Of a stretch of DNA of 64,000 bases, positions 27,803 to 39,157 are shown piece by piece. The notes under the pieces are model-generated. The model was not told the DNA's origin, searched no databases, and was given only the letters and a program-made list of their open reading frames with translations. Origin of the DNA: Pantoea endophytica (lineage in GTDB: Bacteria; Pseudomonadota; Gammaproteobacteria; Enterobacterales; Enterobacteriaceae); contig NZ_PJRT01000025.1 of NCBI RefSeq assembly GCF_002858935.1, positions 62,001 to 126,000 of the forward strand, given 5' to 3'. How positions within the stretch are numbered: the stretch's first letter is position 1; each line of letters begins with the position of its first letter. The translations under genes were made by a program, and so were the position numbers.

Positions 27803-28162
27803 ATGATGAATAAGTTTGCAATGATCTTTCTGACAGCAGCGATGACCATGGGTAGCGGTGCTGTAATGGCTGCGGATAACAACAATGGTGCGGCCAACGC
27901 TTCAGCTGAAGCCGGTGCAGCAGCTGGCGGTGCAAAACAAAATCTGCCACCTAATAATGTTGATAACAGCAAAATTAACAGCGGTAGCACCAATACCAAC
28001 AGCGCAGCAACGTCAGGCACTGACTCAAGCAATATGTCAGCCAACCAGGTGCACAAAAACAGCATGTGCAAAGACGGCAAATGCCCGGACATGAATAAAA
28101 AAGTCGACACCAAAGAGGGTGGCGGCCACGTGAAACATAAAACAGACGGTACTTCGCAATAA
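27803..28162 (+). CDS. ybgS: YbgS-like small secreted protein
   Basis: 119 residues with a signal peptide cleaved near VMAADNN (~residue 24). The mature part is low-complexity, rich in Asn, Ser, Ala and Gly, then HKNSMCKDGKCPDMNKKV, which closely recalls the C-terminal block of E. coli YbgS. Two cysteines in CKDGKC might bind metal or form a disulfide. Neighbours match E. coli (aroG on one side, zitB on the other) apart from two inserted genes. Its role is unknown, though beside a zinc exporter a metal link is possible. Confidence 0.88.
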   Translation: MMNKFAMIFLTAAMTMGSGAVMAADNNNGAANASAEAGAAAGGAKQNLPPNNVDNSKINSGSTNTNSAATSGTDSSNMSANQVHKNSMCKDGKCPDMNKKVDTKEGGGHVKHKTDGTSQ

Positions 28163-28180: not shown

Positions 28181-28206
28181 AAGGGAGAGCTTCGGCTCTC
28201 CCTTTT
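28181..28206 (+). terminator. terminator after ybgS
   Basis: AAGGGAGAGC, TTCG tetraloop, GCTCTCCC, then TTTTATTTT. A strong stem with a UUCG loop and T tract 20 bases after the ybgS stop; it separates ybgS from the response-regulator gene. Confidence 0.92.
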
Positions 28207-28265
28207 ATTTTGCCCCCCGCCCTTTTCCGCTATGCTGAAGCAATGAAATTCACAGGAACTGTTTC

Positions 28266-28850
28266 ATGGCTTCATTGCTGCTTATTGATGATCACCCGTT
28301 AGTTGCCGTCGCACTGGAAGCGGCTTGCGTTAATGCTCCTATCATGTTGAATATTCACGCCGCTGGCGACGAAGCGCAGGCGCGCCAACTGCTTCAACAA
28401 CATCCCATCGATTTAATTGTGCTGGATATCGGTTTACCCGATTGCGACGGACTCGAACTGCTGCGCCGGTTGCGCGTGCGTAATCAGCACTGCCCGGTGT
28501 TGATCTATTCCGCGCAGCAGAGCCGCCACACGCTGCTCAGCGCCGTGTCGCTTGGCGCTGCCGGTTACGTGGTGAAAAGCCAAAGCATGGCGCAACTGTT
28601 GAGCGCGATTCTGGCGGTGCTCGGCGGCCAGCAGGCTTTTCCGCCGCTGCCGGAACGTATCGAACTGCCGTTAACCGAGAAAGAGCAGCAGATTGTAGCG
28701 CTGCTGGTGCGCGGCCTCTCGAATCTGCAGATTGGCGAACAGCTGCATATCAGCAATAAAACCGTTAGCACCCACAAGAAGAACATCCTGGAGAAAACCG
28801 GCGTACAGTCGGTGGTTGAGCTGGCTGAGCTGTGGAAAGCGCAGCAGTGA
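28266..28850 (+). CDS. BvgA/EvgA-type LuxR-family response regulator
   Basis: 194 residues. The receiver domain (1-~120) has the acidic pair Asp8/Asp9, phospho-acceptor Asp54 in IVLDIGLPDCDG and Lys104 in YVVKSQS. The C-terminal LuxR-type helix-turn-helix (about 135-190) includes LTEKEQQIVALLVRGLSN and ISNKTVSTHKKNILEKTGV. Its stop overlaps the GTG start of the hybrid kinase gene, so the two form a pair. Not part of the E. coli ybgS-zitB interval. Target genes are unknown; zitB downstream is one candidate. Confidence 0.92.
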   Translation: MASLLLIDDHPLVAVALEAACVNAPIMLNIHAAGDEAQARQLLQQHPIDLIVLDIGLPDCDGLELLRRLRVRNQHCPVLIYSAQQSRHTLLSAVSLGAAGYVVKSQSMAQLLSAILAVLGGQQAFPPLPERIELPLTEKEQQIVALLVRGLSNLQIGEQLHISNKTVSTHKKNILEKTGVQSVVELAELWKAQQ

Positions 28851-31800
28851 GGATCTGTTTGCTGCTGTGTACGCTGCTGCTGAGTGTGATGGCGAAAGCC
28901 GATCTGCAACCCGCCAGCAGCGTGATGTTACCCGCGATGATGCCGGCCCCACACGCCGAGCCGTGGCCTGGCGCAACGTTGCGCGTCGCGGTGCCGGCAC
29001 AAAACAGCGCACCCTGGGCGATGCGTATTGGCGATCACCTCTGGGGCATCGACGCCGACTATCTCAGCGCCCTAAGCCAGTTGACCGGTACGCATTTCAC
29101 GCTGCAAAGCTATGCCGATCGCGCGCAGCAACTGGCAGCCTTGCAGCGCGACGAGGTGGATTTGGTGTTAAGTAATCAACATGCCCAGCTCCCATCCGAT
29201 GTGCTGCTCAGCGACAGCTGGTACAGCAGCCCGATTCGCATCTATCGCAACCGGGATAATCAGCGCGCGGTGATGTTCAATAGCGAAACCGCGCAGCTCA
29301 CCATTGCCGAAGCGACGCTGGCGCAGTTGCCCACTGAATTTGTGCAGCAGCATCGCTGGCACACCTTGCCGGGCGATCTGCAGGCGCTGTATGCGCTGCT
29401 CAATCAGCAAAGCGATTATCTGGTCGCCGATGAAGCCAGCGCCGGTTTCTTGCTGGGCCAGCTGCAGCAAGGACAAATTTACCAAATCACTGCCGATCCT
29501 GGCGCGGGCGAATTAACGCTACGCGCAATGACGCGCAATGCCGCGCTGATCCACTGGCTTAACAGCCAGCTGCGCCTGCTGCCCGCCGAGTTCAGCAGTC
29601 GGGTCCAGCAGCGCTGGAGCCCGCCGCTGCTGCGTTATCAGGACACACAAACTCTGATGCTGTCGGCCAGCGAAAAGCAGTGGCTGGCGCAACATACTGA
29701 GATTCCGTATGCGGTTGAGGCGGATAACGCGCCCTGGAGTTATCGCGACAGCAGCGGCAACGCGCGCGGCTTCGGCATCGACATGCTGAACGCACTGAGC
29801 CAAAGTACCGGCCTGCGTTTTACCCCGCGCTGGGTCAACAATCCGCAGCAGGCCGCCACGCTACTGCAGCAACAGCAGGTGATGCTCAACCTGTTGCAGC
29901 CGCTGTATGGCGACGATCCCGGCAGCAATACTTTGCCGGTATGGCGCGCCATTTGGGGCATTTACACGCTTGACACGCATCAGCCAATGAACTGGCAATC
30001 GCTACAAGGCCAGCGCGTGGGCGTATTACGCGACGATCTCGCCATACGTTTGCTGCCGTCAGGTATTACGCCGCAGCCGTTCGACGATCGGACGCAGCTG
30101 TGGCAAGCGCTGAATAACGGTCAGATCGATGTGCTGGTAGATAACGTGCTCTCTGCCCGCTGGCGTATGGCGAGTCACGAAGATAATCGTGTGCATCTGG
30201 CGTTTGCTGCCAGCGATATCGCCTGGCCGCTGGCACCGCAGGTCAGTGCTGAACAGCCTGAGCTGCGCGCCCTGCTCGACCATGCATTGCAGCAAATCCC
30301 GCCTGATACGCTCAACCAGATGCGCGTCAGCTGGTCACAGCCGCCGCAGCCCGGCACGACGATGGCGATGCGCAATATTCCGCTGATGATTTTGCTTGCG
30401 GCAGGCGTAATTATTCTGTTGCTGTTGGGCTTGCTGGCGCGTCGTTACTGGCAGCAGCGCCGTGACCGATTGCAGCGTGAGCAGGCCGAACGCGCCAATG
30501 CCGCCAAAAGCCAGTTTCTTGCCACTGCCAGCCACGAACTGCGCACGCCGATGCAGGCGATTCTCGGTTTGCTGGAGCTGGAACAGCAGCAGCATCCGAG
30601 TGAACGGCTGGCGCTGATGCACAGCAGCGCGCGGTCGCTGATGGCGCTATTGAACGACTTGCAGGATCACGCGCGTATTGAGAGCCAGAGCTTCCGTCTG
30701 GCACCGCGCCCGCTCAATCTGACGCTCTGGCTGCAGCAACAGCAGCAGTTTTATCATCCGTTAATGCGCGATGCCGGGCCGAACCTGATCGCCGAAGCGC
30801 TGACGCCGCTGCCTGCCAGCGTGTTGCTGGATGGCGATCGCCTGCAGCAGGTGGTGAATAATCTGGTGGCCAACGCCCTGAAATTTACCCGCGAAGGCGA
30901 AGTGCGCCTGTCGCTGGCGGTGAGTGAGCTTATCCAGCTTACGGTCGCCGACACCGGCAGCGGCATCCCGCTTAACGAGCAGGCACAACTGTTTGAGCCG
31001 TGGTATCAGGCGCCGTCTGGCAAAAGCCATGCGGTGCAAGGCAGCGGCTTAGGTTTGTTTATCTGTCGCGAGATTGTGCAACGAATGGGCGGTACGCTAA
31101 CGCTCACTTCAGCACCGGGCAGCGGCACCACGGTCAGCGTGCAGTTGCCATTAGTCGTGAGCCAAGAGCCGTTAACCGAGCGCACAGCCAGCTGGCCTGT
31201 TTACCCGCAGCTGCGCGTGGCCATTGTGGACGATCACCCGACCAATCTTTTGGTGATGCAGCAGCAGCTGGCGATGTTTGGCGTTGAGGCGCAGGTATTT
31301 GAAGAGGGCCGAGCGCTGCTGCGCGCCGATGCTCAGCGCGCCTTCGATATTCTGTTTATCGACCAGATGATGCCGCGCCCGGATGGTTTAACGCTGCTGC
31401 GTATTCTGCGCCGTCGTCAGCGCCAGCGCGGCAGCACCTCGCTGCGCGTGCTCTGCTCTGCAGATGTTCAGTTGCTGAAAATCGCCTTGCTGGATGACGA
31501 AGCTCTGCTGCTCAAACCCATTGAGCTCGATCATCTGGCACCGCTGCTGGCGCGCGCAGTAAAAGATCCATTGGATGTCTTGCCAAACAGCTTACTGATT
31601 CTGGCGCAGGATAATCAGGCATTTATTCCGCGCATCTGTCAAACCTTGCAGCGCACGCTGCAACAGGATCGGGATTTGCTGTTGAACGCGCGCGATACAC
31701 AAAATTGTACGGCCCTGGAACAGGCTGCACACCGCATGAAGGGCAGCTGGTTGATGCTAGGCATTGATGAGGTAGCCGAGCGCTGTCAGCAGTTGATTGA

Positions 31801-31918
31801 GCAGGTTAAACAGCAGCAGTTGCCGCTTGATGATCTCAATTTACTGATATCATTAACAAACAGGTTACTTAAACAACTGGATAATTATGGCACACACGCA
31901 TTCTCACGGGACCGCTAA
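28847..31918 (+). CDS. BvgS/EvgS-like hybrid sensor kinase with two Venus-flytrap domains
   Basis: 1023 residues from the GTG at 28847 (GTGA overlap with the regulator stop; a GTG at 28832 is the alternative). Layout: signal peptide (1-~18), two periplasmic SBP_bac_3-like domains (~43-255 and ~285-495), one membrane helix (~511-534), HisKA with His563 in [13 protein letters not shown], HATPase with [22 protein letters not shown] and GSGLGLF, receiver with Asp839 in FIDQMMP and Lys890, and a C-terminal Hpt with His962 in AAHRMKGSW. The membrane helix is followed almost directly by HisKA, so no PAS domain. The 3' end overlaps zitB by 32 bases. Signal unknown. Confidence 0.92.
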
Positions 31919-32852
31919 CGGCAACCGCAAACGACTGGCCGCGGCGTTTGGCGTAACGGCGCTGTTTATGGTGGCCGAAGTGATCGGCGGGCTGGTTTCT
32001 GGCTCGCTGGCGCTGCTGGCCGATGCCGGACATATGTTGACCGATGCCGCCGCGCTGCTGATGGCGTTACTCGCGGTGCAGTTTGCTCAGCGCAAGCCTA
32101 ACGCGCGCCATACCTTCGGCTTGCTGCGTCTCACCACCTTAGCGGCGTTCGTCAACGCCATTGCGCTATTGGTGATTACGGTGCTGATTGTCTGGGAAGC
32201 GCTGCGTCGCTTCTATGAACCCCAGCCGATTGCCGGCGGATTGATGCTCGGCATCGCCATTGCCGGTCTGCTGGCCAATCTGCTGTCGTTCTGGCTGCTG
32301 CATCGCGGCAGCGAAGAGAAGAATCTCAACGTACGTGCGGCGGCATTGCATGTGCTGGGCGATTTGCTGGGTTCGGTCGGTGCGATTGTCGCGGCGGTGA
32401 TCATCATGCTGACCGGCTGGACGCCAATCGACCCAATTTTGTCGCTGCTGGTGTCATTGCTGGTGGTACGTAGCGCCTGGTCGCTGCTGCGCGAGAGCCT
32501 GCATGAGTTGCTGGAAGGTGCGCCGGGCCATATCAACGCGGATAAACTGTCACGCGAGCTGACGCGCAATATCGATGAAGTACGTAACGTGCATCACGTT
32601 CATTTGTGGCAAGTGGGTGAAAAACCGGTGCTGACGCTGCATGTGCAGGTGATTCCGCCATACGATCATGACGGCCTGCTTAAGCGCATTCACCACTATT
32701 TGCATGAGCACTATCAGATTGCCCACGCCACGGTGCAGATGGAATATCAGCCGTGCAGCGGGCCGGACTGCGAGTTGTGTTTAGATAATAGCGCCGCGCA
32801 GCACGATCACCACGATCATGCTGCGCTGGAAGGTCACGCTCATCATCACTGA
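31887..32852 (+). CDS. zitB: ZitB-like zinc/cation efflux protein (CDF family)
   Basis: 321 residues, slightly longer than E. coli ZitB. Six membrane helices; the zinc-site residues appear as [17 protein letters not shown] (helix 2) and [17 protein letters not shown] (helix 5). Histidine-rich ends (MAHTHSHG and a C-terminal HDHHDH...HAHHH stretch) are typical. It exports Zn2+ against protons. Translation starts inside the end of the hybrid kinase gene, with only a weak ribosome site, so it may depend on upstream translation. Convergent with pnuC. Confidence 0.95.
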
Positions 32853-37834: not shown

Positions 37835-38629
37835 TTACAACCCAGCAAGACGTTTTTGCGCCTGCTTAGCAGAATCACTATTTGGGAATTGTTTGATCAC
37901 TTGCTGGAAGACAGCCTTGGCTTTCGCCGTGTCGTTCTTCTCTTGCATGATCACACCAACCTTAAACAGCGCTTCCGGGGCTTTTGGCGATTTCGCGTAA
38001 TTTTTTACCACAGTGGCAAAATAATAAGCCGAATCGTCTTTTTTACCCTTGTTGTAATACAGCTGACCAAGCCAGTAATTGGCATTCGGCTGATAGGTAG
38101 AATCAGGATATTTCTTCACCCAAGCCTGCAGGGCAGTGATCGCCTGATCGTACTGCTTCTTCTCCAGAATCAGCGCAACCGCAGCATTGTAGTCCGTGTT
38201 GGCATCGCCGGTTTGCGCTGGCGCGGCCGAACTGGCGCTGCTACCGCTATCCGCAGAAGCCGCAGCGCCCGCTGCAGCGGCATCAGCACCACCGCTCGCC
38301 TGCGCACCGTTACTGCCGGAGCTAAGGCTGTCGATTTGCTGATAGAGCTGCTTCTGGCGCTCAATCACCTGATTAAGCTGATAGCTGTTTTGCTGGATTT
38401 GCCCGCGCAGCGAATCGATATCGCTTTGGTTGTCGCTCATCTGCTGCTGCAATTGCTGCAAAAGCTGAGCCTGGGCATTAGAGATACGTTCAAGAGTGGT
38501 GACGCGGTCTTCGACCGAGCCTGAGCCAACGCTACTGATTGACGCCTGGGCATTAGCGGCCCCCAAAGGAGCCGCTAAACCAACCAGTAACGACAGACTC
38601 AACAGATGAAGTCTGAAGTTACTCATCAT
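37835..38629 (-). CDS. cpoB: cell division coordinator CpoB (YbgF)
   Basis: 264 residues, periplasmic. Signal peptide to about residue 27 (ANAQAS), a trimerising coiled coil rich in Gln (about 45-95), an Ala/Ser/Gly-rich linker, and C-terminal TPR repeats (DYNAAVALILEKKQYDQAI, YWLGQLYYNKGKKDDSAYYF, PEALFKVGVIMQEKNDTAKA). It links PBP1B activity with Tol-dependent outer-membrane constriction. Last gene of the tol-pal cluster, nine bases after pal. Confidence 0.96.
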   Translation of the reverse strand: MMSNFRLHLLSLSLLVGLAAPLGAANAQASISSVGSGSVEDRVTTLERISNAQAQLLQQLQQQMSDNQSDIDSLRGQIQQNSYQLNQVIERQKQLYQQIDSLSSGSNGAQASGGADAAAAGAAASADSGSSASSAAPAQTGDANTDYNAAVALILEKKQYDQAITALQAWVKKYPDSTYQPNANYWLGQLYYNKGKKDDSAYYFATVVKNYAKSPKAPEALFKVGVIMQEKNDTAKAKAVFQQVIKQFPNSDSAKQAQKRLAGL

Positions 38630-38638
38630 GATATTTTC

Positions 38639-39157
38639 TTAGTAAACCAGTACGGCACGACGGTTTTTAGCGTAAGCCGCTTCGTCATGACCCAGTACAG
38701 CTGGTTTTTCTTTACCGTAAGAAACGATAGACATCTGGTCAGCAGAAACGCCTTTGCCTTGCAGATACATCTTAACGGCGCTTGCACGACGTTCGCCCAG
38801 GGCGATGTTGTATTCTGGGGTACCGCGCTCATCCGCATGACCTTCGATGGTCACTTTGTAAGACGGGTTGCCACGCAGGAATGCAGCGTGCTGATCCAGC
38901 ATCTGAGCGTAGTCAGAAGCCACGTCATACTTGTCCAGACCGAAGTAAACGATGTTGTTCTGCTGCAGCTGCTGCATCTGCAGGCGCGCTTGTTCATCAG
39001 AAGACATGTTACCGCCGTTCTGACCAGCACCATAAGCACCGTCGTTAGCGCCCATGCCAGTCTGATCGTTGTTGTTGTTTTTGTGTGAGCTACATGCAGC
39101 TACTGCGATAACCGGCAGAGCCAGCATCAAACCCTTCAGCACTTTGTTCAGTTGCAT
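38639..39157 (-). CDS. pal: peptidoglycan-associated lipoprotein Pal
   Basis: 172 residues. Lipobox AVAAC with acylated Cys22, a flexible N-terminal linker and a C-terminal OmpA-like domain with the peptidoglycan-binding motif [19 protein letters not shown]. It anchors the outer membrane to the wall and binds TolB. Its length equals that of close enterobacterial homologues. Part of tolB-pal-cpoB. Confidence 0.98.

Follow-up and report, generated by a model that had tools for sequence, protein, structure and literature searches.

Last codons of a BvgS/EvgS-type kinase gene in Pantoea very probably carry the promoter of the overlapping zinc exporter gene zitB

The BvgS/BvgA system of Bordetella and the EvgS/EvgA system of Escherichia coli are phosphorelays in which a NarL/LuxR-type regulator gene adjoins the gene of a hybrid kinase with tandem flytrap domains followed by HisKA, HATPase, receiver and Hpt domains. 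We analysed a locus of this type in a 64,000-nucleotide stretch of Pantoea endophytica (contig NZ_PJRT01000025.1, positions 62,001 to 126,000 of the forward strand; hereafter the window), where the kinase gene overlaps zitB, which encodes a zinc exporter of the cation diffusion facilitator family. According to the available parts of PMC3726324 and PMC5573083, BvgS and EvgS, respectively, have a PAS domain between the membrane and HisKA. Transcription of E. coli zitB is zinc-inducible according to the accessible part of PMC4424684, which cites earlier work; the accessible part of PMC6094482 contains nothing on zitB regulation, and the main text of PMC12910134 does not mention EvgS, BvgS or zitB. 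Promoters within overlapping genes are already known, an example being the recA-recX pair of Mycobacterium tuberculosis, which is co-transcribed and, as described in the available part of PMC3062782, also has a recX promoter inside recA. The locus in the window resembles that pair in its overlapping genes and in a predicted promoter internal to the upstream gene, but here the upstream gene has repeatedly been lost in relatives, whereas the internal promoter usually stays.

The gene order in the window is gpmA, aroG, ybgS, the LuxR-type regulator gene, the hybrid kinase gene, zitB, pnuC and nadA, and all features given below are on the plus strand unless stated otherwise. The regulator gene (28266..28850) and the kinase gene (28847..31918) meet at a GTGA junction with the kinase GTG start at 28847 (alternative starts are GTG 28832 and ATG 28889), and the kinase gene overlaps zitB (31887..32852) by exactly 32 bases (31887..31918). 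The zitB product scores 568.7 bits against NCBIfam NF002923, above the ZitB equivalog cut-off of 408. In the one annotated E. coli genome compared, the neighbours gpmA, aroG, ybgS, zitB, pnuC and nadA are the same, but the regulator-kinase pair is absent and ybgS and zitB are adjacent with 113 bases between them. An earlier note, made from the letters of this DNA alone, had correctly described the pair with its tandem flytrap, receiver and Hpt domains between ybgS and zitB, both junctions, and the departure from the E. coli arrangement. We assign a probability of about 0.77 to the following account, drawn from comparative sequence analysis: the pair would be an old phosphorelay, the end of its kinase gene would carry zitB's own promoter, ribosome-binding site and start codon, and the pair would often have been lost while the promoter was mostly kept.

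The candidate promoter is an extended -10 element, TGATATCAT (31845..31853), which reads TGA-TATCAT. It starts 42 bases before the zitB ATG and ends 34 bases 5' of it; the hexamer starts 39 bases 5' of the ATG, matches TATAAT at five of six positions and is preceded by TGn, at a plausible distance to the start codon. The leader of the zitB message would be about 27 bases long. The pentamer CTGGA (31877..31881), also within kinase codons, probably serves as the zitB ribosome-binding site, and codons -10 and -7 are conserved. Synonymous constraint is high in the kinase 3' end that precedes the overlap (31835..31886). We measured it as excess codon identity in 10-codon windows across 25 kinases of clade 1, which comprises Pantoea and its relatives (1062 columns). 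At columns 1032-1036, just before the overlap, the excess was 0.33-0.36, compared with a maximum of 0.330 among 955 windows in the rest of the gene (mean 0.090, standard deviation 0.060). It rose to 0.48 in windows extending into the overlap, and an earlier run that included two badly cut rows agreed. The commonest clade-1 codons from -52 to -32 of zitB are CTC, AAT, TTA, CTG, ATA, TCA and TTA, found in 15, 18, 19, 20, 18, 19 and 20 of the 25 kinases, respectively. Codons of the motif are rare in these genes: ATA makes up 4.8% of Ile, TCA 3.5% of Ser and TTA 6.3% of Leu codons. Random synonymous recoding of the real residues yields TGnTAnnAT with a mean probability of 0.0015, yet all 25 kinases have it.

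The motif was also counted in a denser sample of the clade, with TGnTAnnAT required to begin between -50 and -34 relative to zitB (shuffle expectation 0 to 1.2% per sequence). Of 45 kinase carriers, 43 have it, as do 4 of 4 loci with broken kinases and 15 of 21 kinase-less clade members; none of 21 kinase-less genomes outside the clade has it. An alignment of the 15 kinase-less genomes, anchored at the motif, shows a constant TG and -10 hexamer and a variable stretch from there to the start site. L090 carries TGATATAAT, and L155 and L157 carry TGATATGAT. Each of these variants creates a stop codon in the reading frame of the kinase, and constraint on the kinase protein therefore cannot explain why the motif persists. 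A looser definition, any hexamer with at least four of six matches to TATAAT, was discarded as non-discriminating, as it is found in 45/45, 4/4 and 21/21 of the clade groups but also in 15/21 outside genomes. Taken together, these findings make it very probable that zitB has its own sigma-70 extended -10 promoter in the last codons of the kinase gene and, since the kinase end would carry it, that zitB can be expressed without the pair. The earlier note had named an independent zitB promoter within the kinase gene, giving all expression, as an observation that would speak against a zitB coupled to the pair. Such a promoter, which may provide all or part of zitB expression, is now strongly indicated.

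The history of the locus fits this account. In a sample of the family, 28 of 392 genomes, from 11 of 154 genera, have the kinase (E 1e-100); 12 of these 28 genomes belong to clade 1 and 16 to clade 2, which consists of other genera of the same family. All 28 loci have the same neighbourhood, with zitB downstream in 27. Within the window's own genus, 56 of 61 genomes have the kinase, some as broken pieces. A sample of the order (295 genomes, 1e-75) gave six matches, four in the same genus and two in another genus of the same family, and those two are paralogue-like proteins with 28-29% identity. The closest named kinase, from Pantoea sp. SOD02, is 95% identical to that of the window. We compared the kinase tree with a housekeeping tree built on AroG, GpmA, PnuC and NadA. 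The two clades are common to both trees, as are most of the sub-groups; the trees disagree on L099, which joins L098 in the kinase tree (a starred grouping whose branch is flagged as long) and not in the housekeeping tree. With every orthologue in one and the same location and a kinase tree that broadly mirrors the housekeeping tree, the sequences indicate that the locus is old rather than a local insertion. Horizontal insertion in Pantoea was rejected on the grounds of the broad agreement of the trees and the fixed place in the 28 loci.

Kinase-less genomes are nested within clade 1, which points to repeated loss. Kinase presence changed at least 12 times within the clade, with seven changes forced by starred branches, although such a number by itself does not separate gain from loss and the root of the tree is not fixed. 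In L087-L090, the bases 5' of zitB match the kinase coding tail (none of 200 shuffles was as good), over up to about 75 bases in L089. In L086, the upstream region of the regulator stands before zitB instead (score 79 versus a shuffle maximum of 31). Since four of the six kinase-less members tested keep the kinase 3' end before zitB and one keeps the regulator upstream region, loss would explain the kinase-less members of the clade. Decay can also be seen in progress: L177 has a kinase that is short of about 475 residues and has lost its frame, with fragments remaining and TGATATCAT still in place, and in L179, a genome of 2.9 megabases, regulator, kinase and zitB are all decaying with recognisable remains. 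The suggestion of the earlier note that the pair had been inserted between ybgS and zitB did not hold up against the largely agreeing trees and the remnants in five of the six members tested. As a separate observation, L173-L177, all of the window's genus, have a broken or decaying kinase and an intact motif before zitB. Some of these breaks may be draft errors; several draft genomes contain sequence errors, and in L022 and L176 pnuC is split as well.

Several observations weigh against this account. No conserved -35 was found upstream of TGATATCAT in the alignments, and a promoter scan of the window that required both hexamers did not list the site. Extended -10 promoters, however, need no -35. 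At column 126, a window of the gene body reaches 0.330, as much as the lowest-scoring of the five promoter windows. Two kinase carriers, L166 and L168, have TGATATCCT instead of the strict motif, which is also missing in six of the 21 kinase-less clade members. Of these six, L086 has its regulator region there; four related genomes have TATACT or TATAGT and L163 has TATTAT, in all five cases in the same register but lacking the TG. The tail signal of clade 2 is weak (z 2.0-2.7 around the candidate site, below that clade's own gene-body maximum of 0.358). Only its last, gappy windows score higher (z 4.3-5.5). All 15 clade-2 kinases compared have a candidate -10 made up of a TAT codon and a following ACT or AAT, located about 100 bases before zitB in L101; this site is weak by the window statistic. 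The bases directly 5' of the zitB ATG are constrained by zitB translation as well. The test for left-over sequence covered six of the 21 kinase-less clade members (L086-L091), and L091 matched the kinase tail and the regulator region no better than shuffles did. Finally, the sampled genomes are related and were hand-picked from lists sorted by ZitB similarity, and the counts are neither independent nor a random sample.

Upstream, ybgS (27803..28162; Pfam PF13985, 158.6 bits) has its own intrinsic terminator with a 10-pair stem and a T-rich tail (28181..28204), immediately after which the pair would be transcribed from a short promoter. Its probable -10 region is GCTATGCTG (28229..28237), with the pattern GYTATKCTR. 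Across both clades, 37 of 42 loci have this pattern in front of the regulator gene; none of 21 zitB upstream regions from outside genomes has it. A regulator-binding repeat was sought upstream of the regulator, but the alignment shows only the -10-like pattern; no operator could be named and hence no regulon predicted. Matches of many outside genomes to the regulator upstream region were set aside as mostly the shared ybgS terminator, by reading of the sequences. No terminator-like site was found by the scan at the kinase/zitB junction itself; weak sites are listed inside the kinase gene and at 31949-31964 in zitB, with a total of 10 for the region versus 7.2 in shuffles. Because the ybgS terminator is separate, no junction terminator is listed and the genes overlap, read-through from the regulator promoter is possible and may add to zitB expression.

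This evidence also bears on the view that zitB is simply the third gene of a regulator-kinase-zitB operon, expressed mainly in dependence on the phosphorelay. Its attractions are the unbroken junction downstream of a clear terminator after ybgS, the presence of zitB beside the kinase in all but one of the 28 family-sample genomes, and the tightness of the junctions. The kinase overlaps zitB by 11-32 bases in 27 of 28 clade-1 (Pantoea/Erwinia-type) loci, which is the conservation that the earlier note had proposed to check. The only exception is L022, in which the kinase is frame-broken; other choices of stop and start gave overlaps of up to 38 bases, in a count that took wrong zitB starts for L014, L015 and L037. 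Of the 16 clade-2 loci, 14 have a distance of -1 to +81 bases and one has +181; the remaining locus lacks zitB. At the other junction, 37 of 40 kinase-carrying loci (44 loci minus four that are cut or frame-broken) offer a possible start codon for the kinase at -4 or -1 relative to the end of the regulator gene. However, the other neighbours are conserved as well, so that the adjacency of zitB is nothing special. ZitB occurs in 211 of the 392 family genomes (E 1e-80) as against 28 with the kinase, and zitB keeps the embedded promoter where the pair has been lost. Moreover, genome G380 (locus L097) has regulator and kinase, the latter followed immediately by pnuC, and lacks a close ZitB (best match in the genome 27% identity). 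We therefore consider such an operon unlikely, and exclusive dependence of zitB on the regulator promoter looks unlikely too. The coupling that the earlier note had foreseen survives as far as the overlap, the junction free of listed terminators and possible read-through are concerned, but not as dependence on the pair, given the strongly indicated embedded promoter; G380 likewise gives no support to a sensory pair dedicated to zitB.

Two other readings concern the conserved tail itself. It could be conserved for zitB translation, through the ribosome-binding site or coupling, or for an RNA structure, and not for the start of transcription. Constraint also extends to codons -16 to -7 and to the overlap, and overlapping genes make coupling plausible. 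Yet what the 15 kinase-less genomes keep is the TG and the -10 and not the intervening stretch to the start, and L086 has the regulator upstream region in place of the kinase tail, which leaves this reading with a small chance. Alternatively, the promoter is older than the pair: regulator and kinase would have arrived upstream of zitB later, with the kinase gene extending across a promoter already in place, and the kinase-less relatives would be ancestral. A promoter at a like distance could indeed predate the pair, and neither the unfixed root nor the change counts can tell gain from loss. Nevertheless, the nesting of kinase-less members among carriers, left-over sequence that matches the kinase coding tail, the kinase fragments in L177 and L179, the broad agreement of the trees and the absence of the motif from all 21 outside genomes make this order of events very improbable. 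Within the favoured account of an embedded promoter, the arrangement could conceivably act as a switch, in which a phosphorelay that raises its own operon would send polymerase across the kinase tail and thereby either increase zitB message or block the embedded zitB promoter. We regard this as a rather doubtful extension. If it were true, sensor activity would set zinc export without a regulator site at zitB, and loss of the pair would make zitB constitutive.

The proteins of the pair have the expected relay architecture. Pfam identifies in the kinase one SBP_bac_3, HisKA, HATPase_c, Response_reg and Hpt, in that order, with HisKA (His563) and HATPase_c at 30503..31153, the receiver (Asp839) at 31217..31537 and Hpt (His962) at 31634..31855, its final codons carrying the proposed zitB -10. 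His563, Asp839 and His962 are invariant in 39 of 39 kinases. The regulator consists of Response_reg and GerE domains, its phospho-acceptor is Asp54 by position, within the LDIGLP box, and the Asp box is kept in at least 35 of 39 regulators. Phosphate would flow from His563 through Asp839 and His962 to Asp54 of the regulator. The first flytrap domain has no Pfam match, only the second being found. However, the best Foldseek matches of the periplasmic part (28910..30391, approximate limits used for alignment) are BvgS 4q0c and EvgS 9ilw, over 485 and 502 columns; the model is of low confidence (predicted local distance difference test score 57.1, TM-scores 0.31-0.39) and was used to rank folds, not for geometry. 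By sequence alone, phmmer gave E 1.6e-17 for 4q0c and 1.6e-20 for 9ilw, with query spans of 43-480 and 24-489, and these near-full-length matches identify tandem periplasmic flytrap domains. No Pfam match to a PAS domain was found between the membrane and HisKA, which begins at residue 553, about 20 residues past the membrane segment near 512-531. The NCBIfam equivalog cut-offs of EvgS and EvgA are far from reached (238 versus 1995 and 94 versus 251 bits). Because of these two results, and unlike BvgS and EvgS also in its place beside zitB, the system is best filed outside both EvgAS proper and BvgAS, as a BvgS/EvgS-type phosphorelay. The BvgAS-type relay of the earlier note thus stands, without the PAS domain.

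The same note had suggested that the flytrap domains may sense a small molecule or a metal complex relevant to zinc export. The periplasmic part in the window lacks cysteine, and its 12 histidines all fall short of 95% conservation in the 39 kinases, the level that we required of His or Cys ligands in a zinc sensor; Asp or Glu ligands are possible. Metal sensing was rejected on this ground: the lack of conserved His or Cys speaks against zinc as the ligand, which is probably a small organic molecule, if there is one at all. The regulon would not be confined to zitB.

Some further observations were made along the way. In the window, the 3' ends of zitB and pnuC, which are convergent, share 7 bases (32846-32852); overlaps of 4 or 7 bases occur in 24 of 28 clade-1 kinase loci, and of 4 bases in 14 of 27 kinase-less loci. 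Farther downstream, on the minus strand, Rfam matches the CpoB/ybgF thermometer (38600-38738, 117.2 bits). The kinase and zitB loci of L010 and L021, whose records are titled Enterobacter cancerogenus M004 and Enterobacter ludwigii EnVs2, are Pantoea-like, and the kinase of L021 is identical to that of G240, a genome placed in the window's own genus, so that these record titles look wrong. Contigs C29, C27 and C12 of the window's own genome (G000) encode several other hybrid kinases in open frames of more than 1000 residues, with 22-33% identity to the present one; two of them (L002 and L006) each stand beside a LuxR-type regulator.

A PAS-less, BvgS-like phosphorelay is thus well spread in Pantoea. 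The titles and opening parts of abstracts found on zitB, ybgS, two-component systems, EvgS, BvgS and Pantoea contained no description of the pair, which is no proof of absence. Its ligand and targets are open to testing. For zinc export, the locus offers a natural experiment, as many lineages have the same exporter, some with a sensor kinase upstream of it and others without, and remnants of the kinase would mark where the exporter's promoter lies. It also carries a caution that an overlap of two genes should not be read as dependence of one on the other.

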